A DNA stretch of 64,000 bases from Nostoc edaphicum CCNP1411 (GTDB lineage: Bacteria > Cyanobacteriota > Cyanobacteriia > Cyanobacteriales > Nostocaceae): the NCBI RefSeq assembly GCF_014023275.1, contig NZ_CP054698.1, forward strand, positions 1,860,001 to 1,924,000, written 5' to 3'. Below the pieces are notes generated by a model, which saw only the letters and a program-made list of their open reading frames with translations, had not been told where the DNA came from and searched no databases. Numbering within the stretch: position 1 is the first letter of the stretch; each line of letters starts with the position of its first letter. The position numbers and the translations under genes were made by a program. This document shows positions 12,883-33,597 of this stretch, piece by piece.

Positions 12883-12907
12883 ATCATCTAATCGTACTTA
12901 AGACAGT

Positions 12908-15127: not shown

Positions 15128-18007
15128 TTAAAGCTCCCCTTCTAACTGTTGGGCTACCAGTCTGGCAAATAACCCTGATTGGGCAATCAATTCCGAAAAA
15201 TTACCTACCTGCACAACATTACCAGCGTCAATAACATAGATGCGATCGGCATTACGAATTGTGCTGAGGCGATGGGCAATTACCACTCTGGTAGCATTTA
15301 ACTTAGCTAAACTTTCAGTCACAATTGCCTGGGTGCGGTTATCCAAAGCACTGGTTGCCTCATCCATCAAGATAATTTTAGGCTTGGAAACAAGCGATCG
15401 CGCAATCAATAATCTTTGCCGTTGTCCACCGGAGAGATTACTACCACCCTCAGCGACGATCGTATGCATCCCCATTGGCATTTGCTTGATATCATCAGCA
15501 AAACCTGCCATCTGTGCTGCTGACCAAGCTTCTTCTAGAGAAACCAAAGCCCCGGCGGTGATGTTATCAAAAACCGATCCTGTACCGATTTTTCCATTTT
15601 GCAGCACCACTCCTAACTGTCTTCGCACAGCCTGGAGTTCCATCTCTGCTAAGTCTTTGCCGTCATAATAGATACTACCTGCCAATGGAGTTTCAAAGCC
15701 CAATAACAACCGTAATATCGTTGATTTTCCACTTCCAGAAGACCCAACGATCGCAACAAATTCCCCTGGTTCGGCATGGAGGCTGACATCATTGAGGATT
15801 AAGCTGCCATTTTCCGAGTAGCGAAAGCTGACACGATTTAGGGCAATGCGGCCGTTTAATTGACCGGGGTTAACCTTGGTTGAGTCATATTCAGGCTGCG
15901 ATCGCCAAATCGGTTTTGCTCGTTCCCATATTGGTACAATACTCCAAATTTCCGATACAGTATTGCTCAGGTCAATTACTCCTTTGATAAAAATCGCCAA
16001 AGCATAGTTAAAAGCAACGAATGTACCCAGTGTCAGGCGTGTCTGCATCAACAACATAGCAAACCCAAACAGCAGTATAGAACTTACTAAAGGGAGTGCT
16101 TCGTTAAATATAGAAATACCATCTTTAATTTCTTGCCAACTCGCCTTCAGTCGGATCTGCTGGCTGTACTTTTTTGCCCAAGCTGCAAATGCACGTTCTT
16201 CTGCCATTGTGACTCGCAGCTTGGCAACACCGTTAATTAGTTGGACGGTGAGTCCCTGAATTACGCCATTGAGTTCTTGCTCTTTTTTCGATTTCTTCAC
16301 CAAGAGGAAACTTGCAACAGTTGTAACCACAGCGGCAAATATTGCTAAACCCACGCCCACAAGCGCTAGTTGCCAACTGTAAATAAACATCAGTACTAAG
16401 TTGAATAAGGCAAAAACTCCACTCAACAACGTCCGTTGCGTAGCACCACTGAGTTTTTGATGAATTTCCCTCACCGCCATAACGCGGTTGACTAAATCTC
16501 CAGAAGTGTACTGGCGAAAAAAGCTAGGACTTAATCTGAGTAAACGATCCCAGATGGCTGGCTGTAATATGCTATCAGTGGCGCTTTCGACTCTTAGAGT
16601 AATAATACTTTGGGCAACTTGAAAAGCTAACTGTCCAAAGGCGACTGCAAACATAACCAATCCGATCTGCCAAAGTAAAGCGCGATCGCTATCGGGAATG
16701 GCATGATTGATTAAAATTGCTGTTGCTTGTGGTGCAACCATGCCCAATATTGTGCCCAGTAGCCCTACCACTAAAATACTGGCGATGTCTTTTTCATAAC
16801 CCTTGACCCCAAACCGTAGCAGGTCGATGGCTTTGAGCGCAACTTGGGGTAACGGTCGATACAGAACGTAGGCTAATGGTGACAGTGTTTTTGCTATTGA
16901 TTCATTTACAAGTGTCCGAGTCCGCGCTACGGGGTCGAAAATTACATAATCTCGATTATCTGTAGGTAACAACGCCACTGGCTGCTTTTCCAACTGAGTA
17001 TAAGCTAATATTGCCCCTTGGTCTTGACGCCACCAGCCATCTGCTAAAGTTATCCGGCGGATACGAATGTGTGATGCTTGTGCGATCGCCCCTACAGGGT
17101 CTTTAATAGAATTCAAATCCTCTGCTGGTGGACGAATCTCTATTCCCAGCGATCGCCCGACTGCACCAAATGCTACCAATAAGGGCGGCCCTTCCTGAGA
17201 AAAAACCGCCTCCTGCTGTGGCTGCAATACTGTTGCTAAGTCAGAGAGTGCCCCCTTTATTACTTGCTGATTAAATTGCTCACGTTCCTGAAATCGCCGA
17301 AATTCTGCTTCTGCTTCTTTATTTGCCAGTAAACTGAAGTAGTGAAAGAAATAAGTATGCAAAGTGGCTAAACCTGCCAGGAGTTCCTCGGAATTTTCTA
17401 AATCTGCCGTTGGCAACATCTCTCCGATAACCGCATTTTCTGCCTCCAGCCACATATCACTCGTGAGTGGAAACGCTGGTGAGGCAGAATTCAAGGTTAA
17501 TTCCTCAACTCCCATCCAGTGAGTATTGCCTTGCCGCAACTTCACCCATAGAAGTGTTTGTTGGCTCCACTGTAGCGTTTCACCAGGGGATAATGAAAAA
17601 TCTCGCCCTAATGTCTGCACAAGGTTTAATGGCGTAGTCAAAACTGTCTGCTGGGCACTAAGAGATTGTCCTAAATTATTTACCCAACCTTCTAAAAGTT
17701 CTATGGCTTGAGAGTCAGCCGCCGCGATTCCCTTAACCAAATCAACCATTGACATCTGGCATAATTGGGTGGGTTCAATTGCGATCGCTACAAAATTCCA
17801 TTGGCTTTGTGCTATTACTTCCGGTAACAAGACTTCACCAGCGTTCACATGAAACAAATAGCGGCGATGCTCCTTTGGTAAACTGTTTTTAACTCTAGTT
17901 GCAAACACTGCTAATGTTCCAGACTGAACTATCCAGACAGTTTCTGAATTATCCAACAGTACTGGTTCGTTTGCTTGAAGAAAGTATGGTTTAGGAAGAG
18001 AATTCAC
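15128..18007 (-). CDS. NHLP-type bacteriocin export ABC transporter, permease/ATPase without peptidase
   Basis: A 959-residue protein from GTG 18007. Residues 1-~330 form a regulatory region resembling a cyclic-nucleotide-binding fold (VWIVQSGTLAVFATRV). An ABC exporter membrane domain spans ~400-700 (VVGLLGTILGMVAPQATAIL) and the ATPase ~720-959 has Walker A GSSGSGKST, signature LSGGQRQR and Walker [13 protein letters not shown]. This is the second, peptidase-free ABC protein that accompanies Nif11/NHLP leader systems. It would work with the C39 transporter at 18592 and the HlyD-type adaptor to export the modified lanthipeptides. It follows the C39 gene in the same direction, with the GNAT gene inserted on the opposite strand between them. 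Confidence 0.9.
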   Translation of the reverse strand: MNSLPKPYFLQANEPVLLDNSETVWIVQSGTLAVFATRVKNSLPKEHRRYLFHVNAGEVLLPEVIAQSQWNFVAIAIEPTQLCQMSMVDLVKGIAAADSQAIELLEGWVNNLGQSLSAQQTVLTTPLNLVQTLGRDFSLSPGETLQWSQQTLLWVKLRQGNTHWMGVEELTLNSASPAFPLTSDMWLEAENAVIGEMLPTADLENSEELLAGLATLHTYFFHYFSLLANKEAEAEFRRFQEREQFNQQVIKGALSDLATVLQPQQEAVFSQEGPPLLVAFGAVGRSLGIEIRPPAEDLNSIKDPVGAIAQASHIRIRRITLADGWWRQDQGAILAYTQLEKQPVALLPTDNRDYVIFDPVARTRTLVNESIAKTLSPLAYVLYRPLPQVALKAIDLLRFGVKGYEKDIASILVVGLLGTILGMVAPQATAILINHAIPDSDRALLWQIGLVMFAVAFGQLAFQVAQSIITLRVESATDSILQPAIWDRLLRLSPSFFRQYTSGDLVNRVMAVREIHQKLSGATQRTLLSGVFALFNLVLMFIYSWQLALVGVGLAIFAAVVTTVASFLLVKKSKKEQELNGVIQGLTVQLINGVAKLRVTMAEERAFAAWAKKYSQQIRLKASWQEIKDGISIFNEALPLVSSILLFGFAMLLMQTRLTLGTFVAFNYALAIFIKGVIDLSNTVSEIWSIVPIWERAKPIWRSQPEYDSTKVNPGQLNGRIALNRVSFRYSENGSLILNDVSLHAEPGEFVAIVGSSGSGKSTILRLLLGFETPLAGSIYYDGKDLAEMELQAVRRQLGVVLQNGKIGTGSVFDNITAGALVSLEEAWSAAQMAGFADDIKQMPMGMHTIVAEGGSNLSGGQRQRLLIARSLVSKPKIILMDEATSALDNRTQAIVTESLAKLNATRVVIAHRLSTIRNADRIYVIDAGNVVQVGNFSELIAQSGLFARLVAQQLEGEL

Positions 18008-18093
18008 TGAAGGTAAATCGATATGAGTTCGACGAGTAGAAAAAGATATAAAAAACTATTGTATCCCGGCTGAATATAACAAATTTTTTTTTG

Positions 18094-18615
18094 ATGATAA
18101 AATTACGAACTGCTAACCTAAACGATATAGACTTCATCTTTACTCAAGAAACCAGAGATGAATTCAAAGACCTTATCCTCTGCTGGAGTCGAGAAGAACA
18201 CAGCAGCAACTTACACTGTGCTGACAAACATTATTTAATGATTGAAAATGTTTCAGGAGAAACGCAAGGCTACGCTATTTTGTCTGGCTTACAATCACCG
18301 AACCGTAGTATTGAATTAACTCGAATTATCGTTGCTGAACCAGGACTAGGATACGGCAAACGTGCGTTACGCATCATCCTCAAAAAGGTTTTTGAAGACT
18401 ATAATGCTCATCGTTGTTGGTTAGATGTCTTTGAACACAATCAACGTGCTAGACATGTTTATCAATCAGTCGGCTTTCAAGAGGAAGGAGTTTTGCGAGA
18501 AGCCTTGAGGCAAAAAGATAAGTATTCTTCGTTAGTAATTATGTCTATCCTTGAAAACGAATACTTCCAAGAAATCTTCTCAAACTCGATATTATGCCTC
18601 TGCCGCGTGAAGTAA
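18094..18615 (+). CDS. GNAT-family N-acetyltransferase
   Basis: A 173-residue protein starting at ATG 18094 ([16 protein letters not shown]). Acetyl-CoA binding is indicated by [20 protein letters not shown] and the RimI-like tail [20 protein letters not shown]. Its last 24 bases overlap antisense with the end of the C39 transporter gene. It is the only plus-strand gene among the exporter genes. It could acetylate a peptide or an antibiotic, or be an unrelated housekeeping acetyltransferase. Nothing in the sequence ties it to the lanthipeptide beyond position. Confidence 0.85.
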
Positions 18616-21024
18616 GCGAACATAAGTTCCGCCTTGCTGCCATAATTCCTCATGGGTTCCACGCTGCACGATTTTACCTTGCTCTAGCACAATAATTTCA
18701 TGGCAATCGCGGATTGTGCTGAGGCGGTGGGCTACTACAATACATGAACAACCACGTTGTTGCAAGTTACGGTTAATAATCAACTCTGTTTCTGCATCCA
18801 AGGCGCTGGTTGCTTCATCCAGTACTAAGACTGTGGGATTTCTCACCAAAGCGCGGGCAATTTCTAAACGCTGGCGTTGTCCACCACTAATATTCATACC
18901 GCCTTCGATTAACTCAAAGTCATATTTTCCAGGCATAGATGCGATCGCATCATGAATCGCTGCATCTTGGCAAGCCTGCACCAAATCAACTTCTGGTACA
19001 GTCGAATCCCAAAGAGTGATGTTTTCTCGGACAGTCCCGGCAAATAAAAAGATATCCTGTTCAACCATTGCCAACCAGTTAGCTAAAACAGAACGCTTAA
19101 TTTGCGATCGCTCTACACCATCAAAGCAGATTTCCCCATCCCAAGGTTGATAAAGACCACAAATTAATTTAGCAACTGTGGATTTACCAGAACCACTCCC
19201 CCCCACAAGTGCTATTCTTTGCCCTGGCTTAACAGTCAAACTCAAATTCTCAATCAACGGAGGTTCTACACGACTATAGCCAAAAGTGACATTCCGTAAC
19301 TCAACATGACCGTGTAATTGCCAGAGAGATGAGGAAGTAATTTTTCCCCCTGCTCCCCCTGCTCCCCCTGCCTCCCCTGCCTCCCCTGCTCCCCCTGCCT
19401 CCCCTGCTCTCCGCCTCCCCTCCACTTCCAAATCAACGGGGTTTTGCAATACATCATCAAGGCGGTTTAAATCAGCTTCTAAATCTTGGAGTGTACTGCC
19501 GAAATTAACGAGGCTATTAACTGGCTCTAAAAAACTCAGTGTTAAACTTTGATAGGCTACCAGCATTCCAATACTGAGATTGCCCTTCATTACCTGTAAA
19601 CCACCAACCAGCAAAATAGAAGCTGTGGTTAGGGCTGTCAAAATTGTAGGTAATGTGGTGAGAATTTGAGTTTGTAAACCTAATTGTTGTTGGGCGTTCA
19701 TGGCTTTAGCATAATAACCCGCAAACCGAGCAAATAAATCTGACTCCAGCCCAGAAGCTTTGATGGTTTCTATCGTTTGGATGCCGCTAATCGTTACTCC
19801 ACCCACTTTGCCATATTCCTGAGCTAGGCGCATATTTGTATCTACACGAGTTTGCGATAAAAATAGGAGGGCGAGAATGTTGATTAAAGCAAAACCGACT
19901 GCGATCGCACTCAGCAATTGGTCATACTGAATCATGATCAGCAGATAAAATATCATCATCACCGCGTCAATTACTGTGGTTGCCAAAGGCCCTGAGAGTA
20001 CTTCTGCCACCCGGTCATTAAGTTGCACCCGGCTACTAATTTCCCCAGCAAAGCGTTGATCGTAAAACCCAATGGGCAATCGCAGGATATGCCAGAGAAA
20101 CTGTCCTGATGTGCTGACTGATAACTTAACCATTAATCGCCGCAGGTAGGTAAGCCGCAATCTGGCAAGGAATGCTCGCAATAAAGTCGTTAACAGCATT
20201 CCTAACAGCAAAGGTCGTAACCAATCTTGCCGATCTTCGATTAAAATCTCATCGATAAATACCTGAGAAAAGGCTGGTACAGCTAACCGAGGCAATGTTA
20301 GTAATAACCCCGCAAGCAAGCAAAATAAGATAGTAACTCGTGAGTTTTGTAAGCGGCTATTTAAGGCTGAGACAATGTGATTTTTTTTGCCTCCCTTCTG
20401 AAAATCCGCTCCTGGTTCCATTGTCAGCACAACACCCGTGTATGCGCGATCGAACTCTTCCCAACTCACTGTTCTGCGACCATTGGCAGGATCGTTGAGG
20501 TAGACACGTTTTTTGCTATATCCTTCTACTACGAGAAAATGGTTAAAATTCCAAAAGGCAATGTAGGGAAGACGGGTAGTTTTGACGTTTTCCAGAGACA
20601 GTTTTAAACCTTTAGCATTGAGTCCATAGTTTTTGGCAGCTTTGAGGATATTAAAAGCTTTACTTCCATCCCGCGAGACACCGCATTCTTCACGCAGTTT
20701 AGCCAGTGGCACAATCCGCCCGTAATAGCTCAGAATTATTCCTAAAGCAGCTGCACCACATTCGACCGCTTCCATTTGCAAAAGTGTAGAAGTGCGGACA
20801 CGATTTAATAATTGGGAATTGGGCATGGGGCATAGGGCATGGGGCATGGGGCAAGAACTTGAAAGTTGAGCTTCTGAGGGTGGAAGTTGAGCTTCTGAGG
20901 GTGGACGTTGAGCTTCCGAGGGTGAAAGTTGAGCTTCTGAGGGTGAAAGTTGAGCTTCTGAAGGTGGAAGTTGAGCTTCTGAGGCTGAACGTTCAAGTTT
21001 TAACCTCCATGCCCAATGCCCCAT
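18592..21024 (-). CDS. NHLP-type bacteriocin export ABC transporter with C39 leader peptidase
   Basis: An 810-residue PCAT-type transporter. The C39 peptidase has C89 ([12 protein letters not shown]), H162 ([13 protein letters not shown]) and D178 (YLNDPANG), which cleave leaders after a double glycine. The membrane domain follows at ~220-510, then the ATPase with Walker [10 protein letters not shown], signature ISGGQRQR and Walker [13 protein letters not shown]. Two parts are unusual. The first ~65 residues are mostly six SEAQLPP-like heptads encoded by 21-bp tandem repeats. A Gly/Ala/Glu-rich insert ([20 protein letters not shown]) lies between membrane domain and ATPase. The ancestral start may be further in, at an ATG near 20828 giving [13 protein letters not shown]. 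It should remove the Nif11 leaders and export the lanthipeptides. Confidence 0.92.
19340..19420 (-). repeat. in-frame C/T-rich short tandem repeat inside the C39 transporter gene
   Basis: Runs of CCCCCTGCT and CCCCTGCCT units encode the Gly-Ala-Gly-Glu-rich linker between the transmembrane and ATPase domains. The same repeat type occurs in the hybrid kinase at 24125-24175 and in intergenic DNA at 56620-56690. The insertion keeps the reading frame. Confidence 0.8.
20866..20991 (-). repeat. six 21-bp tandem repeats encoding SEAQLPP heptads
   Basis: Six adjacent units of TTGAGCTTCTGAGGGTGGAA plus one base, differing at a few positions, form the N-terminal extension of the C39 transporter. Unit length is a multiple of three, so copy-number change would not shift the frame. 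They are bounded by GGGCATG-type heptads at 20819-20852 and 21003-21045. Confidence 0.9.
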
Positions 21025-21045
21025 GCCCTATGCCCTATTCCCAAT

Positions 21046-22485
21046 TTAATAAATTCCCGTCCAAGAGCGTAGCATAGGAATAATATAAGAAATGGGTGCT
21101 TTTTCTCCAACTTTTACTTGAACAGAGGTAGTTGTGCCGGAGGATATTTTTAAGGCTGGGCCATCAGAGGATGACCATTTATAGCCACTTACTGATGTCG
21201 GGTTTTCTTGGAGTTGGACAAAAGCTTGCACCTGACCTTCACCTTTACCCGCAAGACTGGCGGCAATTTCTTTGTTACCAACGATCGCTATAATATCTTG
21301 TGTACTTACCGGAAATGAAGAAATATCTGCGATCGTTCCGATAATGCCACCTTCGCGCTCACGTTTAGCAAAGCTGGGAGTCACTTGTACGGACATCCCT
21401 GGCTTGATTTGCTTACCATCTTTATTAGCAAAGTAAACAAGACTCATAAGTTTTGAATTTGGCTGTTCAGCCTCAATTGACCCCAAGCGACTACCCGGAT
21501 TCATCATTTGTCCAGGGACAGCACTCAGTTCGAGAATGTGACCATTATATTTGCTAATAATTCTACTATCTTGAGATAATTGCAGTTCTAACTGGGCAAT
21601 TCGCCGCTTTACTTCCCGAATTTGATTTGTTTTATTAATTGATTGCTTTAAGTCTTGTTCGCGCAATTTAGTATTTTGAGTATTAATATCTTTAATTTTG
21701 GTTTTAATTTCGTCAATTCTATTAAGATTTTCCAGATATTCTCGTTGCGTTGTTGTTTCTTGAATTTCAAGATCCTTTAGTTGCACGTCAATATCTGATA
21801 GTTCGCTTTGAGTATTAAAATATTCTTGTTCAGCTTGCACTAGCATATCTTGGCTGATGACGTGCTGCTCAAAAAGCTGACGACGGTTATCAACCCGACC
21901 TTTAAGAGTTTTGAGTAAGTAATTGATTTGTTGTTTGCGGGAATTAATGCTTTGGCGTTTTTGAGCGATCGCTCTTTGGGTTTGATCGCGTAACTTGGGT
22001 GCATCTTGCTCTCGGCGCAGATTATTTTCCAAATCCAGTTTTTGCTGCCCAAGGGTGATAATTTGTTGGTCAATCAGCAGCTTTTGTAGCCTGTCAGTTT
22101 CTTGATTTTGGGTTTGCAGTTGTTGCAACTTTATCTGCTCTTGCTGCAACTGCTGTTTCAAAGCTGATTGGTCGATAATACCCAGTACATCACCTTGTTT
22201 AATAATATCCCCCGGCTTCACCTTGAGAGTTAGTAATGGGCCAGAACTGGGTGCTTGAAATTCCACAACATGGTGCGGTTTAATCAAGATACCTTGGCCT
22301 GTGACGGTGAGGGGAATTCTGCCGAACACACTCCAAACGCCAGCCACAGCAACCACAAAGCTCATCGCAGATAAAGTCAACCAAGCTTGAGGCTTGACTA
22401 CATTTATCGCTTGATCCAGTTGTTCTGGTGAAGATAAGCGTTCTAGGGCTTCTTGGCGATAGATGTGGCTGTGTTTGAGTTGCAT
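21046..22485 (-). CDS. HlyD-family adaptor of NHLP bacteriocin export system
   Basis: A 479-residue membrane fusion protein. ATG 22485 follows AAGGAG directly; a GTG eight codons upstream would place the ribosome site inside the gene. One membrane helix (AWLTLSAMSFVVAVAGVWSV) lies near residue 45. A lipoyl-like half-motif (GPLLTLKVKPGDIIKQGDVL), a long coiled coil (~residues 110-310, rich in Gln and Leu) and the returning beta domain (GHILELSAVPGQMMNPGSRL) follow. It lies 21 bp upstream of the C39 transporter gene, in one operon. It would bridge the ABC exporter to an outer-membrane channel such as TolC, which is not in this window. Confidence 0.9.
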   Translation of the reverse strand: MQLKHSHIYRQEALERLSSPEQLDQAINVVKPQAWLTLSAMSFVVAVAGVWSVFGRIPLTVTGQGILIKPHHVVEFQAPSSGPLLTLKVKPGDIIKQGDVLGIIDQSALKQQLQQEQIKLQQLQTQNQETDRLQKLLIDQQIITLGQQKLDLENNLRREQDAPKLRDQTQRAIAQKRQSINSRKQQINYLLKTLKGRVDNRRQLFEQHVISQDMLVQAEQEYFNTQSELSDIDVQLKDLEIQETTTQREYLENLNRIDEIKTKIKDINTQNTKLREQDLKQSINKTNQIREVKRRIAQLELQLSQDSRIISKYNGHILELSAVPGQMMNPGSRLGSIEAEQPNSKLMSLVYFANKDGKQIKPGMSVQVTPSFAKREREGGIIGTIADISSFPVSTQDIIAIVGNKEIAASLAGKGEGQVQAFVQLQENPTSVSGYKWSSSDGPALKISSGTTTSVQVKVGEKAPISYIIPMLRSWTGIY

Positions 22486-23089
22486 TGTTCTCCTTCTTGC
22501 TGAAAGCACCCAGAACCTTAAGACTTCTAGACTTTTAAGATTAAAGTGCGATCGGGGAGAACTAGGGGAGAAATAAAGGAAGCGATCGCTTCTACTGCTT
22601 CAACAAAGCACAAACATCACCAATACTATATTTAGCTGACAATTCAGGTCATGTGGAAAAGCCCACCAAAGACCTAACCCCCTAGCCCCCTTCCCGTATC
22701 GGGAAGGGGGAAAATTCAAAGTCTCTCTCCTTATAGGCTACGGTGTACACACAAGTCTGAAATAGCTGATTAACCAGGGTTTTACCCCACCCTAACCCTC
22801 CCCGATGCATTGGGGAGGGAACTAGATTTCTTTCCCCCCAATGCATCGCTACGGTGTATATCCCTCTTCTGTCACTTTCCGAGAAGGCGATCGCTAGAAG
22901 CCTCATGAGGCAATCAATACAAGCTATACTATTAGAAAAAAATCGGTCTTGTATTTGTTATTAGAAAATAATCGCGCGTAGGCGTAGCCCGTCGTAGACA
23001 TCGCAGGCTATACAAATAATAGACAAGATAATTATTTTGTCTAGCACGTAAGTCCTAAACTGACTTCCAGCAATTTACCCGCTCTGAAC
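22486..23089. other. repeat-rich intergenic region
   Basis: No gene is visible. It contains a hairpin CCCTTCCCGTATCGGGAAGG near 22689, a solo copy of the MITE end CTACGGTGTACACACAAG at 22738, and a degenerate second copy near 22850. It also contains the interspersed repeat GCGTAGGCGTAGCCCGTCG at 22977. The HlyD promoter must lie in this stretch, but I cannot point to it. Confidence 0.5.
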
Positions 23090-26000
23090 TCAGTTACAAT
23101 TTTCCTCCGTTAATCCGATAATTTCATCGAAGCAGAAGCTGCGGACTAAATTTGCCAATTTTTCTGCCAAAGCAGAATGTGTTTGTGGAATTTGCTCAAT
23201 TAGTTGGAAAATCCTTTCAGCATCGACTTCAACGGCTGCCTGATTAAGTTCTGTTATCCATTGGGTAGGCATAACGGTAATTGCAGATCGAAGATCCAAG
23301 ATGGAAAATTGAATATTATCTAGGTTGTTGTTTGTGGCTTCTTCACTGCTTTCTTCTGCGTAAACATAACGCACTTGCAAATATTCAGCGATTTTTTCAA
23401 AAATCACTTGCTCCCGGAATGGCTTACGAACCAAGTCGTTGCAACCTGCGGCTAAGATACTTGCTTGTTGTTCTTCAAAAGCACTGGCGGTTAGGGCAAT
23501 AATTACGGTGTGGTGATTTGTAGTTATATTTTTTTCCCTGGCTCTAATCTCTTTTGTTGCATCGTAACCGTTCATTACAGGCATCCGCATATCCATCCAA
23601 ATTAGGTGAGGTTGCCAGGTTTGCCAAATTGCGATCGCTTCTTGTCCATTATTCGCAGCCTCAATCTCAAAACCAATGCTACCAAGAAGTTGCACAATTA
23701 AATCGCGGTTTTCTTTGCGGTCATCCACTACCAGAACACGGTAAGATGGTTGGTCTGCTGCCAGCTTGAGTACACGTCCCTTACTCAATTTTGGTGCAGC
23801 TTTCAAAGCTGCGGCTAAATTCACTTGGATGTCAAAACTAAAAGTAGATCCTTGTCTAAGGCTACTCGTCAAGTGAATATCGCCCCCCAGTAACCGCACA
23901 AATTGACGGCTGATAGTCAGCCCTAGTCCAGTTCCCTCCTTGGTTTGGATACCGCTTGTTGTCTGAACAAAAGGCTGAAACAGGTTATTCATTTCTTCTG
24001 GTGCTATTCCCCGTCCAGTGTCTTCGACTTCAAAGTGAAGGGATGGGGTATTGGGCATGGGGCATGGGGCATGGGGCATGGGGCATGGGGCATTGGGCAT
24101 TGGGGGTTGGGCAGGGCTTAATAGTTCTTCCTCCCCTGCTTCCCCTGCTTCCCCTGCCTCCCCTGCTCCTCTACTCTCACTCCCTAATCTGACTCGTAAC
24201 GTTACTCCCCCTGTTTGAGTAAACTTGACGGCATTACCCAAAAGGTTAATAAGAACTTGGCGGAGTTTACCTTCATCTGTCTGGATATAACGGGGAAGAT
24301 TGGGAGCAATTTCAAATCTGAGGAACAATTGCTTTGTTTGTGCCCTTACCTGGAACATCTCTTGTAAGGTTTGCAACAGCAGATAAAGATCGAAGTCTTC
24401 AGGGTTGAAAATGATTTGTCCAGCCTCAATTTTGGACATTTCTAGAACATCGTTAATCAGGTTGAGCAAGTGTTCGCCACTGCGGTTAATGGTAGCTAAA
24501 GATTCACGCTGGTTTGAGTTGAGGCTAGTGTCTCGTTCCATTAACTGAGAAAAACCCAGAATGGCATTCAGAGGCGTGCGAAGTTCGTGGCTCATGTTAG
24601 CCAGGAAAGCACTTTTGGCACGGTTGGCAGTTTCGGCGGCTTCTTTGGCAATTCTCAGCGCTTCTTCTGCTTGATGTCTGGCTCGACCGATCGCAATTAT
24701 TTCACCTACCAGCTTTAATAGATTCAGATCCTCTTGACTCCAGGTTTGACACAAGTGGATCATCGCTGTACCGACAAATCCAACTACTTCGCCAGAGTGA
24801 AGCATGGGTACAGCAACTACAGACTTAAACGACATCCCCTCAAATAGCTTCCTCTCTGCTGTATCAGGAGGCAATTCTGCCACACAAGGGATTTGTATAT
24901 GGTTGCCAAGCAGGATTGGAGCATAAAAATAGGGAAAACTTTCCACAGGTGATCCTTTGGCAAGATCAATCAAAGGCTCGACACCTTCGCCACACCATTC
25001 ATGAATGAGGTCGAACCGCCTTTGATCTTCGGATAATTCAAAGATGCAACTGTGTTCGGCACTAATAAACTCAGCGATCGCTCGCAGTGTAAAATTAATT
25101 GCTGTTTCTAAATTTTGGTCAATAAATTGGCGAGAAATGCTACTGAGTAAACTTTCGGCTTGAGTCCGACGTTGTAAAGCTGCTTCTGCTTGTTTGCGAT
25201 CGCTAATATCACGAGCTACACCCACAATCTGAAAATTACCTTGGGCATCTTGTGTGCGGACTGCATTAGCAGTTAGCCAAACCCAGCCTTTAGTTCGATG
25301 TTTGGCGCGGTACTCAGTTCCCGAAATTCCCTCACCTGTTGCCAGGATAGTTTGGGCGGCTTCAAAACATATTGGCACATCATCAGGATGAGTAAAGGAT
25401 GCCAAGGAATTACCTTCCATTTCGCTGGGGGCAAATCCTGTAGTGTTCAATATATTAGGAGAAATATAGTTAAATACCCCATCAGGATTGATGACAAACA
25501 GCATATCGTTAACCTTTTCAACGATAGTGCGAAACTTTAACTCACTTTCCTGTAGGGCTGCTTCTGCTTGTTTCCGTTCCAATTCAGCACCGGCACGGGC
25601 AGCAAAAATTTTGACAATCAGTTCCCGTCCCGGATCGTGCTTCATTGGTTTGACATCTATCACTGCTAGATGTCCGATGATTTCGCCGGATGAACTGGTT
25701 AGAGGAACGCCAAAAAAACTCTCGGCATTCATCTTCACTAAATCTGCATCTTGGGGGAAAGCGGCTTGTACTGCTTGAGGGTAGTGACAGAGGTTGCCTT
25801 CCAAGGTATGTTCACAAGGAGTACCTTGCAATTCATACTCCAAGTTCTCGTTAATAGCCCCGCCACACCAAAAGGCTAAAGTGCGGACTTTAGTTTTTGG
25901 CTCATCACCAAACTCAGTGACTAGAGCATATTGAACTTGCAATACCTCGGCAAGGTAACGAACGCAGGAATTGAAAAATTCATCACCTGTTTTTGCTGCT

Positions 26001-28714
26001 GTGCCCTCAACAATTAAGCGTAAAGCCTGTTCTTGCTGTTTGCGATCGCTGATATCTGTAAAGACAGAATCGAGACAGGATTCTTCGGCATTGAGGCGGA
26101 GTGACAACAGTAACCAAACAACTGAACCATCCAAGCGCCGCAGTGCTATTTCAAAATTACGAACTTCACCATCCTTTTCTAACTCTGCTAGCATCCGCGT
26201 GCGATCGTCTGGATTAACATATAAGTCAGTTGTGAAATACTTGCCAACTAAGTCAGCAGCAGAGGTAAAACCTAATATCTCAGCACCACGTTGATTAGCA
26301 TCGATAATCAATCCATCTTTTTGGCAGGTGCGGAAAATCCCCACTTGGGAATTTTCAAAGATGTTGCGGTATTTCATTTCACTACGACGCAAGGCTTCTT
26401 CAGCTTGCTTGCGTTCTGTGATGTCGCGTCCCACACCTGCGATCGCAATTTCACCTCTGGGAGTGTTGATTGTGGAAGTGTTAAAGTTGAACCATCGCCA
26501 GCTACCGTCTTTGTGTCGCAATCGCACCTCAATATCAGTCAGCTTTTCGCCAGTTAAAGCCCTTTGTAAGGCGGTGACGCTAATTGCTAAATCTTCAGGT
26601 TTGGTAAACTCCACCACCGAATGACCTTCGATTTCCTCCAGGCTGTAACCCATAGTTGCAGTCACATTCGGCGAGTGATAAGTAAAAATTCCCTTTGGCG
26701 AGAGGACAAATATCAGATCATTGGCATTTTCAACAATGCTGCGGAATTTTAACTCACTTTCCTGGAGGGCTGCTTCGGCACGTTTGCGTTCTGTGGCATC
26801 AGTACCGACTGAAAGTATTTCGATTAAGTTTCCTTGTTCATCTAAAATAGGTTTATTTGCCCAGACTATCCAGACGCGATCGCCATTTTGGCATAAGTTT
26901 TCATTTTCGTTGAATAAATAGTTTTCTGGGTGTTGACAAATATCAACCATTAATGTTTGTAAGTCGCGCCCAGAAGTTTCGGTTTCTGGAACAATTGTGC
27001 CGATAACATTACGCCCGATAATTTCATCTAAATCGAAACCAAAAATCCTTTGACCGTAATCATTTAAAAATATGATGTTACCGTTACCGTCCCAACGTAG
27101 AATGATGCAGTTGGCTGTTTGCACCAAATCCCGATATTGGACTTCGCTTTGTCGCAAGGCTTCCTCAGTGCGTTTGCGAGCAGTAATATCGCGCACTATC
27201 GCTAAGATGTGCGGCTTACCGTTGTAAATGCAAGTTGTCCCTTTCACTTCCACATCTATCAAAGTGCCATCTTTGCAGATATCAACTGCTGGCCCATAAA
27301 ATTGCTCACCAGATTGCGTTGTTTCGAGAAACTCTAAAAAAACAGAATGTGAGTCTGGGTGAATGTAAACAGATGGATGTAAAGTGAGAAATTCTTCATA
27401 AGAGTAACCGTGCATCTGACAAGCCGCCGGATTAACTTCGGTGACTTTTTCAGTTTCTATTTCAGTAATAAATAGTCCATCATTAATAGCTTCAAAAATA
27501 CTGCGATATTGTAGCTCACTTTGTCGCAGTGCTTCTTCTGCCCTTTGGCGTTGGGTGATGTCGCGGAAACTCCACACTCTACCAATAATCTGTTCGCCGA
27601 TGCGCTGAGGACAGGAATAGCGCTCAAATACTCTGCCATCGCGCAATTCTAATGAGTCGTAACTAACTAGCTCTGGCTGTGAGTACAATCCTCGGACTCG
27701 TTGCAAAAATACATCCGGTTCTTTTAGCTGATTTGCCAGATACGCCAACCGTTGAGGATGATCTGGTTCTGTCAAAAGTTCTGGTGGAATTGACCACATT
27801 TCTAAGAACTTTTGGTTGTAACTAGTGATATTACTTGAGCTATCGACTACTAAGATACCATCTTGAATCGATTCAAAGATAGCGCTTAACAGAGATAAAG
27901 AGTTTTCTAAAGCAACTTGAGTTTGTTTGCGATCGCTCAAATCCCGCCCTAACACCACCAGAGCTTTGCGTCTACCATCCTGGTGAAATAGGGGAGCTTT
28001 AATCATATCTACACTGCTCACCGTCCCATCAGGTCGGGGTATAACTTCTTCTACCCGATGCACACATCCCATCTGCCAAGCTTGTTCATCTGTTTTGTCG
28101 CAGTTGAGCAAAGCATCGTGATAAAAATTGCTAAATTTTGCTAGTTCTGAGTCTGTTTGGCCTTGATAATCAACGCCTTCTAACTGTAAAAATTCCAGGT
28201 TAGCCTGGTTTGATAGTAACCATTTTCCCTCACCGTCTTTTAAACAGATAATATCTGGTGTAGCGTTAATTAATGTCTGCAAACGCTCCTCAATCTCTTG
28301 TAAGGATTCTTGAGTTCGTTGAGTCAGTGTGATATCCCGAATCACCAGTATTGCACAGCGATCGTCAGTCAGTCCGGCACAGTTCCCAGAAATTTGTAGT
28401 GTTAAAGTATGCTCACCCTGCTGCAACTGGTAATTTGTTGTTTCGTACTCACCATTGAGTATCCGCACATCAGGATAGGCTGGTAAAGTAACTGGTTGTC
28501 CTGCTTGTGCTAGGGGTAGCAAGTCAGTTAACTTCGCACCGGAGACAGTGTTGTGGGGTTGATTCACCAAACCCTCAAAGCTAGAATTACACCATTGAAT
28601 GCGTCGGTCTTCTCCTACCCAGACTACAGCATCAGCGATCGCACCTAATGTTACTTCCATTTTGGTGAGGGTAGCTTGCAATTGCTTTACCTGCTCCAAT
28701 TGTTTAGCGCTCAT
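23090..28714 (-). CDS. multi-PAS/GAF hybrid sensor histidine kinase
   Basis: A 1874-residue cytosolic hybrid kinase from ATG 28714, preceded by AAGGAG; a TTG at 28747 is upstream but poorly placed. Seven PAS domains start near residues 20, 138, 271, 396, 520, 651 and 775, a GAF at ~900, an eighth PAS at ~1053 and a second GAF at ~1188. The kinase core has H1376 in MSHELRTPLNAILGF and G-box GTGLGLTISRQ. A receiver at ~1655-1780 has D1708 in WMDMRMPVMNG. No membrane helices are seen. Between the ATP-domain N-box and G-box is an in-frame low-complexity insert ([10 protein letters not shown], then Met-Pro-Cys-rich repeats). It stands divergently from the precursor genes and upstream of the exporter operon, so it may control them. 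Confidence 0.9.
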   Translation of the reverse strand: MSAKQLEQVKQLQATLTKMEVTLGAIADAVVWVGEDRRIQWCNSSFEGLVNQPHNTVSGAKLTDLLPLAQAGQPVTLPAYPDVRILNGEYETTNYQLQQGEHTLTLQISGNCAGLTDDRCAILVIRDITLTQRTQESLQEIEERLQTLINATPDIICLKDGEGKWLLSNQANLEFLQLEGVDYQGQTDSELAKFSNFYHDALLNCDKTDEQAWQMGCVHRVEEVIPRPDGTVSSVDMIKAPLFHQDGRRKALVVLGRDLSDRKQTQVALENSLSLLSAIFESIQDGILVVDSSSNITSYNQKFLEMWSIPPELLTEPDHPQRLAYLANQLKEPDVFLQRVRGLYSQPELVSYDSLELRDGRVFERYSCPQRIGEQIIGRVWSFRDITQRQRAEEALRQSELQYRSIFEAINDGLFITEIETEKVTEVNPAACQMHGYSYEEFLTLHPSVYIHPDSHSVFLEFLETTQSGEQFYGPAVDICKDGTLIDVEVKGTTCIYNGKPHILAIVRDITARKRTEEALRQSEVQYRDLVQTANCIILRWDGNGNIIFLNDYGQRIFGFDLDEIIGRNVIGTIVPETETSGRDLQTLMVDICQHPENYLFNENENLCQNGDRVWIVWANKPILDEQGNLIEILSVGTDATERKRAEAALQESELKFRSIVENANDLIFVLSPKGIFTYHSPNVTATMGYSLEEIEGHSVVEFTKPEDLAISVTALQRALTGEKLTDIEVRLRHKDGSWRWFNFNTSTINTPRGEIAIAGVGRDITERKQAEEALRRSEMKYRNIFENSQVGIFRTCQKDGLIIDANQRGAEILGFTSAADLVGKYFTTDLYVNPDDRTRMLAELEKDGEVRNFEIALRRLDGSVVWLLLSLRLNAEESCLDSVFTDISDRKQQEQALRLIVEGTAAKTGDEFFNSCVRYLAEVLQVQYALVTEFGDEPKTKVRTLAFWCGGAINENLEYELQGTPCEHTLEGNLCHYPQAVQAAFPQDADLVKMNAESFFGVPLTSSSGEIIGHLAVIDVKPMKHDPGRELIVKIFAARAGAELERKQAEAALQESELKFRTIVEKVNDMLFVINPDGVFNYISPNILNTTGFAPSEMEGNSLASFTHPDDVPICFEAAQTILATGEGISGTEYRAKHRTKGWVWLTANAVRTQDAQGNFQIVGVARDISDRKQAEAALQRRTQAESLLSSISRQFIDQNLETAINFTLRAIAEFISAEHSCIFELSEDQRRFDLIHEWCGEGVEPLIDLAKGSPVESFPYFYAPILLGNHIQIPCVAELPPDTAERKLFEGMSFKSVVAVPMLHSGEVVGFVGTAMIHLCQTWSQEDLNLLKLVGEIIAIGRARHQAEEALRIAKEAAETANRAKSAFLANMSHELRTPLNAILGFSQLMERDTSLNSNQRESLATINRSGEHLLNLINDVLEMSKIEAGQIIFNPEDFDLYLLLQTLQEMFQVRAQTKQLFLRFEIAPNLPRYIQTDEGKLRQVLINLLGNAVKFTQTGGVTLRVRLGSESRGAGEAGEAGEAGEEELLSPAQPPMPNAPCPMPHAPCPMPNTPSLHFEVEDTGRGIAPEEMNNLFQPFVQTTSGIQTKEGTGLGLTISRQFVRLLGGDIHLTSSLRQGSTFSFDIQVNLAAALKAAPKLSKGRVLKLAADQPSYRVLVVDDRKENRDLIVQLLGSIGFEIEAANNGQEAIAIWQTWQPHLIWMDMRMPVMNGYDATKEIRAREKNITTNHHTVIIALTASAFEEQQASILAAGCNDLVRKPFREQVIFEKIAEYLQVRYVYAEESSEEATNNNLDNIQFSILDLRSAITVMPTQWITELNQAAVEVDAERIFQLIEQIPQTHSALAEKLANLVRSFCFDEIIGLTEENCN
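24035..24180 (-). repeat. in-frame low-complexity insertion in the kinase ATP-binding domain
   Basis: Plus-strand GGGCATGGGGCATGG units (24048-24107) and CCCCTGCTTCCCC units (24130-24175) lie inside the coding sequence. They encode [21 protein letters not shown] and GEAGEAG-like stretches. The frame is preserved on both sides. Related units lie at 19340, 20819, 21003, 28950 and 56571. Confidence 0.8.
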
Positions 28715-29146
28715 CACCAACTCCTTAATATCTCCTAGATAGATCAATCAATTTGGTATAGCGATTGTATCTTTAGTTGATCATCAGGATATTTAACTAC
28801 AGCAAAACTACATATTGGCTTCAAATATTACAGCAGCTATGCAGATATCAGCATCATAGAGATGGCAGGGAGCAGGGGAGCAACAAGAGGGAAAAGGATG
28901 AAGAAGAAATAAACCCTTTCCCCCTTACCCATTCCCCTTTGCCCTTCTTACCCATGCCCAATGCCCCATTCCCAATGCCCCATCCCCAATTAATCTGTGC
29001 TGAAAAATCTTTCCGCAATTGCACTTATCTCCCCTAGTTCTCCCCTATTTCTGTCTAAATTCAAATCAGAAAAGCAGAGAACACCGCTCAAAACAAGCAC
29101 ATATCTCTGCCGTATCAATAAGTCAACACAAACGGAGAAGAAACGT
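28715..29146. other. divergent intergenic region before the precursor genes
   Basis: This region separates the hybrid kinase (minus) from the first lanthipeptide precursor (plus) and must contain both promoters. It includes purine-rich GCAGGGAGCAGGGGAGC near 28864 and CCCATGCCCAATGCCCCAT heptads at 28950-28990. Neither promoter can be assigned with confidence. Confidence 0.4.
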
Positions 29147-29428
29147 ATGCTACACCAAATTAAAGAATTGCTGCAAAACGCCCAACTACAACAGCAAGTA
29201 ACAGCAGCAGCTAACCAAGCAGAAGCCATCAAAGTGCTAGCGATCGCTAGTGCAGAGAAAGGTTATAACTTCACAGTTGAAGCCATCTCTCAAATGCTGG
29301 CCGAATTAACCTTTGTGGATTCCAACGAACTGAGCGAAGAAGAATTACTTAGTGTTAGTGGTGGATTGATGGCTGATAGTGCGCCTAAGCTATGTCATAC
29401 AGAAGGCTGTGGTGGCGGACACTGCTAA
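29147..29428 (+). CDS. Nif11-type lanthipeptide precursor, copy 1
   Basis: A 93-residue precursor from ATG 29147, with CGGAGAA 9-15 bases upstream; earlier in-frame starts lack a ribosome site and would add unrelated residues. Residues 1-73 form a Nif11-like leader (LHQIKELLQNAQLQQQVTAA, then NQAEAIKVLAIASAEKGYNF) ending in LSEEELLSVSGG. The core after the double glycine is LMADSAPKLCHTEGCGGGHC, with one Ser and one Thr as dehydration sites and three Cys as thioether donors. It is the presumed LanM substrate, with the leader removed by the C39 transporter. Confidence 0.92.
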   Translation: MLHQIKELLQNAQLQQQVTAAANQAEAIKVLAIASAEKGYNFTVEAISQMLAELTFVDSNELSEEELLSVSGGLMADSAPKLCHTEGCGGGHC

Positions 29429-29669: not shown

Positions 29670-29960
29670 ATGTTGTCACAAATTCAAAGCCTACTCCAAA
29701 ATAGCCAACTACGCGAGAATATACAAGCAGCAGTTACCCAAACAGAAGCCATCAAACTGTTGTTAATTGCCAGTGCAGAAAAAGGTTATACTTTCACAGC
29801 CGAAAGCGTAGCTCAAATGCTGTCAGAACTGACCTTTGTGGATTCCAACGAACTGAGCGAAGAAGAATTACTCAGTGTTAGTGGCGGTGCAATGGCTGAT
29901 AGTGCGCCCAAACTATGTCATACAGCCGGCTGTGGTGGCGGACACTGCTATCTCTCGTAA
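29670..29960 (+). CDS. Nif11-type lanthipeptide precursor, copy 2
   Basis: A 96-residue paralogue of the first precursor. ATG 29670 follows GAGGGAA. The leader is also 73 residues and ends in the identical LSEEELLSVSGG. The core starts AMADSAPKLC, continues HTAGCGGGHC and has an extra YLS at the C-terminus. Ser, Thr and all three Cys are in the same places as in copy 1. Leaders differ at many positions while the last ~20 leader residues and the core are nearly unchanged, which points to selection on the cleavage region and product. Confidence 0.92.
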   Translation: MLSQIQSLLQNSQLRENIQAAVTQTEAIKLLLIASAEKGYTFTAESVAQMLSELTFVDSNELSEEELLSVSGGAMADSAPKLCHTAGCGGGHCYLS

Positions 29961-30080
29961 TTCGTAATTTTTGGTCTTTATTTGTTGGGGGCTTGTACCC
30001 CAACTAATTCAATTAATAATTACAAGTTATTTTAATTATGCCTAAGTAGGTAGACATCATTAAATATAAAATAAACTCCT

Positions 30081-30146: not shown

Positions 30147-30279
30147 TTAAATTTATTTATGCCTAGATACTGACCTAATTAGTACTTAATTTAAAATTTA
30201 TTTCAGACGCACGCTATTGTTTTTAATGCTAACTATTAAAACGTAAACCAGAATTGATACTTACCTTTTAACTCCCACT

Positions 30280-33200
30280 ATGAGAAATCCAGCTATGGTT
30301 CAACAAGTTGTTCGCTTATCCCAACAGAAAATATCAGACGATTTAAGAGCGATCGCTGCCAATGCTAGCTTTATCTGGGAACGCCTTGATGAAAGCAGAT
30401 TTGCAGTCGATCGAGTAAACGAACAAGAAATTAACCGTCGGCGCGATCGCTGGTGCGAAGTTGCAGCAGAAGGTAAATTGGATACGTTGCACAAACGCTT
30501 ACAGTGGGAAGGGCTAGACCTCGATCCTGTTAGTTCCAAATTGGGAACCATCGAGTTGCTTGCCGATCAACCTTTGCCTGAGTGGGCAGAAACCTTGCAG
30601 CAAATCATCCAAACCGCTACAGGATTCAATTCTGCAACCGAAGTATTTCTACCAATAGATTCACAAAATCCGATCACCTTTGAAGATATTCTTTTGCCTG
30701 CTATCTTGGTAGCCAGACAGCAATTACTGACTCGCTGCGACAGTCAATTTACCCAAGATTTTCTTTCCTTATCGATTCTTTCCCGCGACGCTTACAGTTC
30801 TCTAGAACGTGGTCTACTGAAACGATTAGCAGGAATTTGCACTAAGACATTAGATTTTGAATTTTCTCAGGTGCGTCCTTTTGGTCAAAGCTTGCTCGGC
30901 TTGCTGGGAATGGAAACGGGACATAATAACACTCACTACACCAAGTTCGTCAATCAACTCTTGGAAGATGGAATGCTGACCTTCTTCCAGAAGTATCCAG
31001 TTCTCGGTCGGTTAGTGGCAACAGCCGTCAATTTTTGGGTTGAGTTTACTGCTGAATTTCTCGAACGTTTAGTTGCAGATAGGACGGATATTCAACGAAC
31101 TTTTAATGAAAGAATTATCCCATTTTCTCAAAACAAAGTTGCCGAAATTCAAACATCCATTTCCGATTCACACAAACGCGGACGAACGGTGATTTTACTC
31201 ACCTTTGAGTCTGGACTTAAACTTGTTTATAAACCCAAAGATTTAGGATTAGAGGTTGTCTTTAACCAATTTTTAGATTGGTGCAATCAACACAGCAATC
31301 TTTTAGATTTTAAAGTCATTCAGGTGCTGGAGCGTAAAGGTTACGGTTGGGTAGAATATGTTGAACAGTTGCCTTGTGTTGATGAAGCAGCTGCAAAACG
31401 ATTCTATCAGCGTTCTGGGATGTTGTTGTGTGTGCTTTACGCTTTGCGGGGAACAGATTGCCATTACGAAAACTTAATTGCCAATGGCGAACATCTGGTG
31501 CTGATTGACATGGAAACACTGCTGCACCACGAACCAAATCTCATTGAAGACTCACCGCTTACCCAAGATTTAGAAACAACCGCCACACGACAATTTTGGG
31601 ATTCCGTACTCCGCACCGGACTTTTACCGCGTTGGGACTTTAGTGGCGATCGCAGTGTCGCTTATGATATTAGCGGTCTAGGCAGCACAGATCCCCGACT
31701 ATCTCCCCGCAAAGTGCCGCGCTGGCAGAATATTAATACAGATAATATGCACCTGTTGTCTGAGCCTGTAACCTTGCCGATTGGGAAAAATGTACCGTTC
31801 TTGGGTGAAGTTGCTCTGTCTCCAAACGATTATCAACTGCAAATCACCACTGGGTTTGAGCAGATGTATCGCTTTTTGATGGCGCACAAAGATTTCTTAA
31901 TTTCACGCCAAAGTTTGCTATCTGCTATGCAAAATCAGCAGGTGCGCTTTATCTTCCGCAACACCCGCATCTATGGCATCATCCTTCAAAAAGCTTTAGC
32001 ACCCGATTACCTCAAACACGGCGTAGATTACAGCATTCAACTCGATGTTCTCAGCCGTGCTTTTCTAGTTGCTCAAGATAAACCAAACGCCTTTCCCGTT
32101 TTGAGCGCAGAACTCCGAGCAATGGAACAATTGGATATTCCCTTCTTCACGGCTAGCGCTGTGGTTGATGAACTGAGTTTAAACGGTTCTTCTTCCATTC
32201 CCAACTACTTCAAGCAATCCAGTTACCAAGACCTGCTCAACCAGTTACAATCTCTAGATGAAACCGACCTAGCTCGACAAGTAGCGATTATTCAAGGCTC
32301 CTTCGATGCCAAGATTGCAACCACTTTCAGCCGCCAAGGTGGGCAATGGCAAGGCGAATCGTTACCGTTGCTAAATTCGGAACAATTGATTGCTGAAGCC
32401 AAGGAAATCGCCACTCAACTGGAAACCAGAGCCATTTCTGACCCTGATGGCAGCGTTAACTGGATTGGTTTAGACTTTATACCTCGCGCCGAACGATATC
32501 AACTGCAAGTATTAAACAATTCTCTTTGTGATGGACGCTCTGGAGTTGCTTTGTTTTTAGCTGCACTAAGTCAAGTAACTGGTGATTCCCGTTACCGTGA
32601 TTTAGCATTGAGGACAGTACAATCTCTGCGTCGCCAAATCCACACCATTGATCCAGAAACTTGGGAACGCATGGCCCGTTTCATGGGCGTTGGGGGTGCA
32701 ACAGGTTTAGGATCGATGATCTATAGCCTGGTGAAAATTAGTCAACTCCTCAACGATGCAACGCTGTTGCCAGACGCTCAAGTATTAGCCGAGTTGATGA
32801 CACCAGAACTAATTGCTGCCGACGAACACTTGGATATTATGAGTGGTGCAGCTGGGGCAATTTTAGGGTTATTATCCCTGTATCAAGCCACAGGAGAAGC
32901 AACCGTATTAGAAAAAGCGATCGCCTGTGGACAACATTTAATCAACCGTCAAGTTAGCCACAACGGTGCGCCCAAAGCTTGGCATACTTATTGGGATAAG
33001 CCCTTAACTGGCTTCTCTCATGGAGCCGCAGGTATCTCTTACGCCTTGCTCAGACTTTATGCCGCCACCTCAGAGGGCAAGTACTTAGAAGCAGGTTTAG
33101 CAGGAATCGAGTATGAGCGTAGCGTCTTTTGCCAGTCCACAGCCAACTGGCCAGACTTCCGCAGAATGGGACAACCAGGACAACTTGACTTTGCAAATAA

Positions 33201-33597
33201 GTGGTGTCATGGTGCAGCCGGCATTGGTTTGGGACGCTTAGGCAGTTTGAGAATCGTGGAAACGCCGGAAATTCAACAAGAAATTGAAATTGCTCTCCAA
33301 ACTACTCAGAGTTTTGGCTTACAAGCGATCGATCACTTGTGCTGTGGCAACTTTGGACGGGCGGAAGTGCTGTTAGTCGGTGCAAAAATCTGTTCCCGTC
33401 CTGATTGGCATCAAATTGCTCACCAGAATGTAACAAATGTTGTGGCTAGAGCCAAGCAAACTGGAGCTTATCAACTGTTCCCCAACTTACCCAATTCTGT
33501 ATTTAATCCTGGCTTTTTACCCGGTATATCTGGAATTGGTTATCAATTGCTGCGTTTGGCGAACAATAATTTGCCTTCAATATTATTGTGGGATTGA
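30280..33597 (+). CDS. lanM: class II lanthipeptide synthetase LanM (ProcM-like)
   Basis: At 1105 residues this is a full-length bifunctional LanM. The N-terminal dehydratase contains VYKPKDLGLE (~316) and CHYENLIANGEHLVLIDMET (~395-415), the kinase-like residues that phosphorylate and eliminate Ser/Thr. The C-terminal cyclase (from ~740) has the LanC repeats GAAGAILGLLSLY, SHGAAGISYALL and KWCHGAAGIGLGRL. Zinc ligands are C976 and the adjacent pair C1021-C1022 in HLCCGNFG. Most LanC domains have CHG there. The CCG variant with three Cys ligands defines the ProcM-like group, known for relaxed substrate use. It lies downstream of the two precursors on the same strand. ATG 30280 is used; ATG 30295 is an alternative. 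Confidence 0.95.
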   Translation: MRNPAMVQQVVRLSQQKISDDLRAIAANASFIWERLDESRFAVDRVNEQEINRRRDRWCEVAAEGKLDTLHKRLQWEGLDLDPVSSKLGTIELLADQPLPEWAETLQQIIQTATGFNSATEVFLPIDSQNPITFEDILLPAILVARQQLLTRCDSQFTQDFLSLSILSRDAYSSLERGLLKRLAGICTKTLDFEFSQVRPFGQSLLGLLGMETGHNNTHYTKFVNQLLEDGMLTFFQKYPVLGRLVATAVNFWVEFTAEFLERLVADRTDIQRTFNERIIPFSQNKVAEIQTSISDSHKRGRTVILLTFESGLKLVYKPKDLGLEVVFNQFLDWCNQHSNLLDFKVIQVLERKGYGWVEYVEQLPCVDEAAAKRFYQRSGMLLCVLYALRGTDCHYENLIANGEHLVLIDMETLLHHEPNLIEDSPLTQDLETTATRQFWDSVLRTGLLPRWDFSGDRSVAYDISGLGSTDPRLSPRKVPRWQNINTDNMHLLSEPVTLPIGKNVPFLGEVALSPNDYQLQITTGFEQMYRFLMAHKDFLISRQSLLSAMQNQQVRFIFRNTRIYGIILQKALAPDYLKHGVDYSIQLDVLSRAFLVAQDKPNAFPVLSAELRAMEQLDIPFFTASAVVDELSLNGSSSIPNYFKQSSYQDLLNQLQSLDETDLARQVAIIQGSFDAKIATTFSRQGGQWQGESLPLLNSEQLIAEAKEIATQLETRAISDPDGSVNWIGLDFIPRAERYQLQVLNNSLCDGRSGVALFLAALSQVTGDSRYRDLALRTVQSLRRQIHTIDPETWERMARFMGVGGATGLGSMIYSLVKISQLLNDATLLPDAQVLAELMTPELIAADEHLDIMSGAAGAILGLLSLYQATGEATVLEKAIACGQHLINRQVSHNGAPKAWHTYWDKPLTGFSHGAAGISYALLRLYAATSEGKYLEAGLAGIEYERSVFCQSTANWPDFRRMGQPGQLDFANKWCHGAAGIGLGRLGSLRIVETPEIQQEIEIALQTTQSFGLQAIDHLCCGNFGRAEVLLVGAKICSRPDWHQIAHQNVTNVVARAKQTGAYQLFPNLPNSVFNPGFLPGISGIGYQLLRLANNNLPSILLWD

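Follow-up and report, generated by a model that had tools for sequence, protein, structure and literature searches.

We analyzed a 64,000-nucleotide stretch of Nostoc edaphicum CCNP1411 DNA (contig NZ_CP054698.1, positions 1,860,001 to 1,924,000; hereafter, the window), in which an earlier reading made from the letters alone (the sequence-only reading) had placed a class II lanthipeptide locus with Nif11-type leaders at positions 15128-33597. The host genome comprises 8.3 Mb in 6 contigs, and the relatives of its precursors and LanM are found mostly in Nostoc. The genes named by the sequence-only reading all lie at the places it gave, and an acetyltransferase gene of the GNAT family and an ISL3 transposase remnant, both absent from its list, are present as well. 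The features are as follows.

15128-18007, minus strand: ABC2, NHLM_micro_ABC2 (TIGR03797, 1022 bits; cut-off, 709)
18091-18615, plus strand: GNAT acetyltransferase (Pfam), between ABC1 and ABC2 and on the opposite strand
18592-21024, minus strand: ABC1, NHLM_micro_ABC1 (TIGR03796, 1170 bits; cut-off, 853) with Peptidase_C39
21046-22509, minus strand: HlyD-type adaptor, NHLM_micro_HlyD (TIGR03794, 351 bits; cut-off, 156)
23090-28747, minus strand: multi-PAS hybrid histidine kinase with 7 PAS stretches
28866-28981, no strand: repeat-holding stretch of ~116 bp that separates the kinase gene from the lanA1 upstream region; most of it does not align in relatives
28982-29146, plus strand: lanA1 upstream region, conserved in 7 aligned relatives
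29147-29428, plus strand: LanA1 precursor, 93 amino acids (73-residue Nif11-type leader and 20-residue core)
29670-29960, plus strand: LanA2 precursor, 96 amino acids (73-residue leader and 23-residue core)
30280-33597, plus strand: LanM, bifunctional dehydratase/cyclase, 1105 amino acids (TIGR03897, 1030 bits; cut-off, 304), DUF4135 and LANC_like
33679-34110, plus strand: ISL3-family transposase remnant, near the end of the similarity to related lanM loci

The frames of all pathway genes are open; the family scores of ABC1, ABC2, HlyD, and LanM are full, and their motifs are intact. TIGR03794, TIGR03796, and TIGR03797 all exceed their cut-offs, as expected of an NHLP export set, and both precursors adjacent to lanM carry a leader, a GG site, and a core with Ser, Thr, and Cys residues. 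These scores and motifs bear out the earlier proposal of a class II lanthipeptide locus equipped for modification, C39 cleavage, and NHLP export, including its C39-peptidase ABC transporter and HlyD adaptor. Since the genome contains a single LANC_like match and a single NHLM HlyD protein above cut-off, the genes of the locus are the best candidates for each other. We consider the locus to be apparently intact and of an ordinary cyanobacterial class II lanthipeptide type, a reading to which we assign a probability of roughly 0.86.

Loci of this kind have been published. Haft et al. (2010, PMC2887384) describe LanM beside Nif11 precursors and a three-gene export set in Nostoc; the NHLP/Nif11 systems in the relevant parts of that paper share the three TIGR families and the leader family with the window and show no difference in kind. 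Among the group IV clusters of Wang et al. (2011, PMC3140520), which contain LanM, seven have HlyD and a short C39 transporter, with a second ABC transporter present in five of the seven; group IV clusters also occur in Subsection V strains, according to a passage in PMC4558948. The window locus has the LanM, HlyD, short C39 ABC protein, and C39-less CAP_ED ABC protein that define group IV. It shares these, as well as Nif11/NHLP precursors, with clusters such as that of Nostoc punctiforme hlyD (Npun_F5048), whose second ABC protein has a CAP_ED domain and no annotated peptidase domain in the sections concerned. Because the pertinent parts of both papers describe the same gene set, the locus belongs to a known kind. 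It differs from group IV, as outlined there, in that its export genes are inverted and lie past a kinase gene, its two ABC genes are separated by a GNAT gene, and it has a KLCHT core. The arrangement that the sequence-only reading considered unfamiliar is thus a local variant of group IV, and the export set that it called split is the normal three-gene NHLP set of PMC2887384. What the locus adds is a conserved KLCHT core type, for which we found no characterized product.

Precursor cores and LanM

The LanA1 leader ends in ELSEEELLSVSGG and is followed by the core LMADSAPKLCHTEGCGGGHC (20 amino acids), and the LanA2 core is AMADSAPKLCHTAGCGGGHCYLS (23 amino acids). The two Nif11-type precursors named earlier are present, from 29147 and 29670, with borderline leader scores: the 32.3 bits of LanA1 equal the curated cut-off of TIGR03798 (32.3). 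Database searches returned 80 LanA1 relatives at E <= 0.01, many annotated as precursors of Nif11-leader RiPPs (ribosomally synthesized and posttranslationally modified peptides); 14 of the 80 have the KLCHT core, and the remainder have other cores or are fragments. When precursors were picked by leader pattern in loci with LanM neighbors, the core KLCHTxxCGGGH was found in 24 of 24 distinct precursors beside LanMs of 91-96% identity, the window's two included, and in 0 of 8 beside LanMs of 66-69% identity, where HMSCC- or other types occur. The exact LanA1 core recurs in four loci (L054, L056, L057, and L061), as does the exact LanA2 core (L053, L057, L061, and L068); L061, from Nostocales cyanobacterium LEGE 12452, has both. 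The claim that the core is novel is not supported, in the sense that the core is common to many Nostoc genomes, though a text search of a collection of papers with the core strings tried returned none containing them and the product appears to be uncharacterized.

Across the 24 KLCHT precursors, S5, A6, P7, K8, L9, C10, H11, T12, C15, G16-18, and H19 are invariant (the script retained only SAPKLCHT cores, which comprise all 24), and position 7 is Ala in four entries (P0004-P0007) of the wider LanA1 match list. With paralogs pooled, the ratio of nonsynonymous to synonymous polymorphism (pN/pS) was 0.24 for the leader and 0.28 for the first 19 core codons; for the core, it was 0.42 in the LanA1-like group alone and 0.24 in the other group. 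Whereas prochlorosin cores vary highly, this core is kept in many Nostoc genomes, and its conservation suggests that a particular product is under selection. The ~165 bp preceding lanA1 are also conserved, even where no kinase gene adjoins (L053, L061, and L068), and this region recurs before the second lanA of L054. A scan of the lanA region for promoters and terminators found sites no more numerous than in shuffled sequences.

The LanA1 core has two Ser/Thr residues versus three Cys residues (2-4 and 3-4, respectively, across the set), so at least one Cys lies outside a lanthionine. We propose that LanM would bind the Nif11-type leaders, dehydrate, in each core, the conserved residues Ser5 and Thr12, and close (methyl)lanthionine rings, which would most simply be Ser5-Cys10 and Thr12-Cys15; a third ring via Ser23 may form in LanA2. 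The predicted core [M+H]+ is 1950.81 for LanA1 after two dehydrations and 2213.93 or 2195.92 for LanA2 after two or three. The C39 domain of ABC1 would then cut after GG, and the core would be exported by ABC1 together with ABC2, HlyD, and an outer-membrane channel whose gene lies elsewhere, most likely to act as an antimicrobial or a signal.

The alignment of LanM to LicM2 and CylM shows that the dehydratase motifs DSH, YKPK, TDCHYEN, and LIDMET are kept. The second zinc motif is CCG in LanM versus CHG in LicM2 and CylM, and the zinc ligands predicted by alignment are C976, C1021, and C1022. In an alignment of 41 LanMs, consisting of the window's LanM and those of 40 of 55 loci that passed a plus-strand motif filter (some genomes are included twice), 38 have CCG and 3 have CHG, the latter with 34-37% identity to the window LanM. 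A three-Cys zinc site marks the ProcM clade, according to the portion of PMC13060382 on these enzymes, and the three-Cys site of this LanM supports the earlier suggestion that it is ProcM-like.

The prochlorosin system likewise has Nif11 leaders and a three-Cys zinc site (PMC13060382 and PMC7268733), whereas its many substrates are scattered and have highly variable cores, as far as those sources describe them; in the window, two candidate substrates were found beside LanM, and the core is conserved across relatives. In the cyanobacterial Nif11-leader class II family as presented in PMC7268733, leaders are conserved and cores variable. The nostolysamide cluster npu (PMC13060382) resembles the locus in its Nostoc host, Nif11 leader, GG cleavage, three-Cys ProcM-clade LanM, and C39 transporter, and NpuM, though a ProcM-clade enzyme, does not share the many dispersed substrates typical of that clade. 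Relative to what that account gives for npu, the locus has a different core (no Lys1 and three Cys residues rather than four), two precursors, and no adjoining tandem GNAT.

Two LanA-type genes were found in the genome. The five other Nif11 matches (four open frames) look unlike LanA: three of the frames lack Cys residues downstream of the leader, and the remaining one encodes 224 amino acids. No further LanM substrate was found with the Nif11 model or a LanA2 query, other leader types not having been searched. Two Nif11-leader precursors outside the window (G000:C6:3587970-3588206 and 1756116-1756337; L002 and L004) have Cys-free cores with repeated LYG/MYG motifs, which we take to resemble the XYG cores of the spliceotide type.

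Comparison of five loci (L064-L067 and L085) with L053-L062 shows that leaders are alike while the core type changes along with LanM (66-69% identity), as if the core and its enzyme had been exchanged as a unit. In L066 and L067, HlyD and ABC1 also stay similar despite the changed core and LanM.

Export proteins and the architecture of ABC2

Aligned to PCAT1, ABC1 keeps the Cys, His, and Asp motifs of its C39 domain. Repeats are abundant in its first ~73 residues, which may precede the true start. Short tandem repeats in the ABC1 frame are located at 20814-20984 (N terminus) and 19345-19420 (linker), and others occur at 24043-24167 in the kinase frame and at 28951-28990 upstream of lanA1; the units include 7/14-mers such as ATGGGGCATTGGGC, a 21-mer repeated 5.8 times, and 9-mers. 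The sequence-only reading had described an outer-membrane channel as missing, but the genome encodes two OEP/TolC-like proteins elsewhere and has one marginal OEP match. The immunity gene that it also reported missing was likewise not noticed among the annotated neighbors, no dedicated search having been run.

The second ABC protein, which had been credited with a regulatory N terminus, is predicted to comprise a CRP-like domain (model residues ~1-120), a beta-rich domain with a long helix (~128-260), a C39-like domain (~269-384), and an ABC exporter core. In a fold search with full-length ABC2, the matches listed were ABC exporters that aligned chiefly to residues 389-956, the alignments of HlyB and PCAT1 spanning ~700 columns; the N-terminal part was therefore folded alone. 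That search barely probed the second, beta-rich domain (128-260). The predicted structure of residues ~269-384 has the C39 fold, and none of 58 aligned rows has a Cys at model residues 262-278.

Two observations argue against a C39-like domain devoid of its cysteine. A Cys is present at model residue 279 in 3 of the 58 rows, and a profile-profile comparison of this stretch with C39 domains gave no significant match. Because that comparison lent no support, the C39-like assignment is drawn from the fold only. The second NHLP ABC protein is described, in the passages of PMC3140520 devoted to it, without a peptidase domain. A literature search for degenerate peptidases in NHLP exporters returned only the HetC paper, which is weak ground for calling such a domain unreported.

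With its predicted CRP-like domain and a C39-like domain in which no catalytic Cys appears to be conserved, ABC2 is probably a regulatory, leader-holding partner of ABC1, as judged from the model. A bolder version, which we regard as rather doubtful, would make ABC2 a sensor-gated pseudo-peptidase exporter: its CRP-like ligand domain(s) would let a small molecule switch export, the dead C39-like domain would hold the leader while the C39 domain of ABC1 cuts, and the two-ring peptide would be a signal rather than an antibiotic. By analogy with ppGpp binding to HetC, the gating ligand would be an intracellular small molecule. HetC of Nostoc PCC 7120 resembles ABC2 in combining a cNMP-type domain, a C39 domain, and an ABC exporter in one protein, whereas its C39 domain is reported in PMC10986499 to be an active cysteine protease and that of ABC2 apparently has no conserved catalytic Cys. 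The predicted architecture of ABC2 is the least ordinary point of the locus; it bears on the entire NHLP export family and suggests how its export could be regulated.

Gene order, the kinase, and the acetyltransferase

Arrangements were counted in 18 named related loci with LanMs of at least 66% identity. Nine of the 18 have HlyD downstream of lanM and on its strand, and in none was it upstream and inverted, as in the window, within the DNA examined. HlyD is followed by ABC1 and ABC2 in L054, L059, and L067 and by at least the start of ABC1 in L056, L061, and L066; in L063, a 36% HlyD lies downstream, after ABC1 and ABC2. Similarity between the window and its relatives stops ~100 bp or less after lanM, where the ISL3 transposase remnant starts, and is missing at ~22.6-23.09 kb. 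These breaks, together with the order in relatives, indicate that at least one inversion displaced the export block, carrying it to the far side of the neighboring kinase gene, and that the window arrangement is a local rearrangement. Since parts of the window's 1-3.7 kb segment adjoin HlyD in several relatives, more than one rearrangement event is possible. In five genomes (G016, G017, G022, G023, and G030), lanM and the export genes are on different contigs.

Several observations weigh against the main reading of an apparently intact locus. HlyD (>=60% identity) was not seen in 9 of the 18 loci, 8 of which show only 0.7-5.2 kb downstream, and the synthesis and export genes of the window share no common operon. 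The leader score of LanA2 (29.6 bits) is under the TIGR03798 cut-off, and a partial precursor in L069 was missed by the leader pattern and left uncounted. A Myxacorys genome has a KLCHT-core precursor even though its LanM is only 70% identical, so the core type need not strictly follow the LanM clade; this precursor was not seen beside that genome's lanM.

The separation of export from synthesis raises the alternative that the locus is decaying and silent, with repeats upstream and no peptide made. The displaced export block, the insertion sequence remnant, the repeats within the 28866-28981 insert and the ABC1 and kinase frames, and the reduction of the export locus of another genome (G019) to ABC fragments without a LanM would all fit this view. 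Decay is nonetheless unlikely given the open frames throughout the pathway, the full scores and intact motifs of the four large proteins, the position of the insert outside the conserved ~165-bp lanA1 upstream region, and the purifying selection seen among relatives, and we retain the reading of an apparently intact locus.

The giant hybrid kinase around which the sequence-only reading had arranged the locus is present at 23090-28747, but its place at the center of the locus is not supported. In favor of a dedicated sensor or regulator of the lanthipeptide genes, 6 of the 18 loci have the gene divergent and <=2 kb upstream of lanM, 2 have it inverted at a distance of 6-8 kb upstream, and a 52% relative is also divergent beside lanA in L064. 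On the other hand, the 9-10 kb preceding lanM in five loci (L058, L061, L062, L065, and L066) did not show it, and in G014, G022, G030, and G032 it is on a different contig than lanM, which has at least 14 kb upstream without this gene. Near-full-length orthologs (>=81% identity over >=1,560 residues) were found in 14 of 59 genomes searched, its own included, and three of these (G005, G013, and G021) have the kinase at 81-89% identity with a best LanM of only 40-46%. With orthologs lacking this lanM or on other contigs, a dedicated regulatory role is improbable, and the kinase is probably a neighbor.

The 173-residue GNAT has a single domain and reaches no NCBIfam cut-off; most of its nearest relatives of solved structure are diamine and spermidine acetyltransferases, and some are aminoglycoside acetyltransferases. 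GNAT-acylated Lys lanthipeptides are known from Nostoc, and in the nostolysamide cluster Lys1 is the target of NpuN, a tandem GNAT (both from the cluster description in PMC13060382). The locus is not of the selidamide/nostolysamide type, as core residue 1 is Leu or Ala, with Lys at position 8, and its GNAT is a single domain; given the tandem structure of NpuN, the two are not the same kind of enzyme, and the GNAT is probably outside the pathway. Among the examined loci, the NpuA core pattern matched a single locus, present in two copies, and there only a frame riddled with stops.

The GNAT could still be imagined to acylate core Lys8, giving a selidamide-like lipidated lanthipeptide, as it sits within the export block in a genus that makes such compounds and Lys8 is present in all 24 KLCHT-type precursors. 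We consider this very unlikely. The gene is on the opposite strand and occurs at the ABC1-ABC2 junction in only three genomes (G000, G029, and G019): in G029 it is 93% identical with one stop near its end, and in G019 it is 89% identical and open even though no LanM was found there. The gene is absent from 10 other ABC1-ABC2 junctions (G009 [L054], G031 [L059], L067, G030, G016, G023, G017, G022, G007, and G014), including that of L054, which has an identical LanA1 core. Eight further GNAT matches (42-46% identity) were left out of this neighborhood comparison, and a profile of this GNAT family matched only GNAT loci that had been retrieved with this GNAT or that contain it. After the junctions of relatives had been compared, a tailoring role was judged unlikely, and the GNAT is probably lineage specific. 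The G019 segment (L146, G019:C108; also L100) is the remnant of a lost export locus, with an open GNAT frame, fragments of ABC1 and ABC2, and no LanM match in the genome.

On the other side of ABC2, the window encodes an RND pump (7932-11063), a VapB/PIN-like pair (12213-12882), and the two-component pair RppA/RppB (12987-15100). These fill the interval 7932-15100 between ABC2 and a gene at 5521-7860 for a single protein with response-regulator, DNA-binding, Hpt, further receiver, and GGDEF domains. This regulator gene adjoins ABC2 in L054, L067, L140, L142, and L143.

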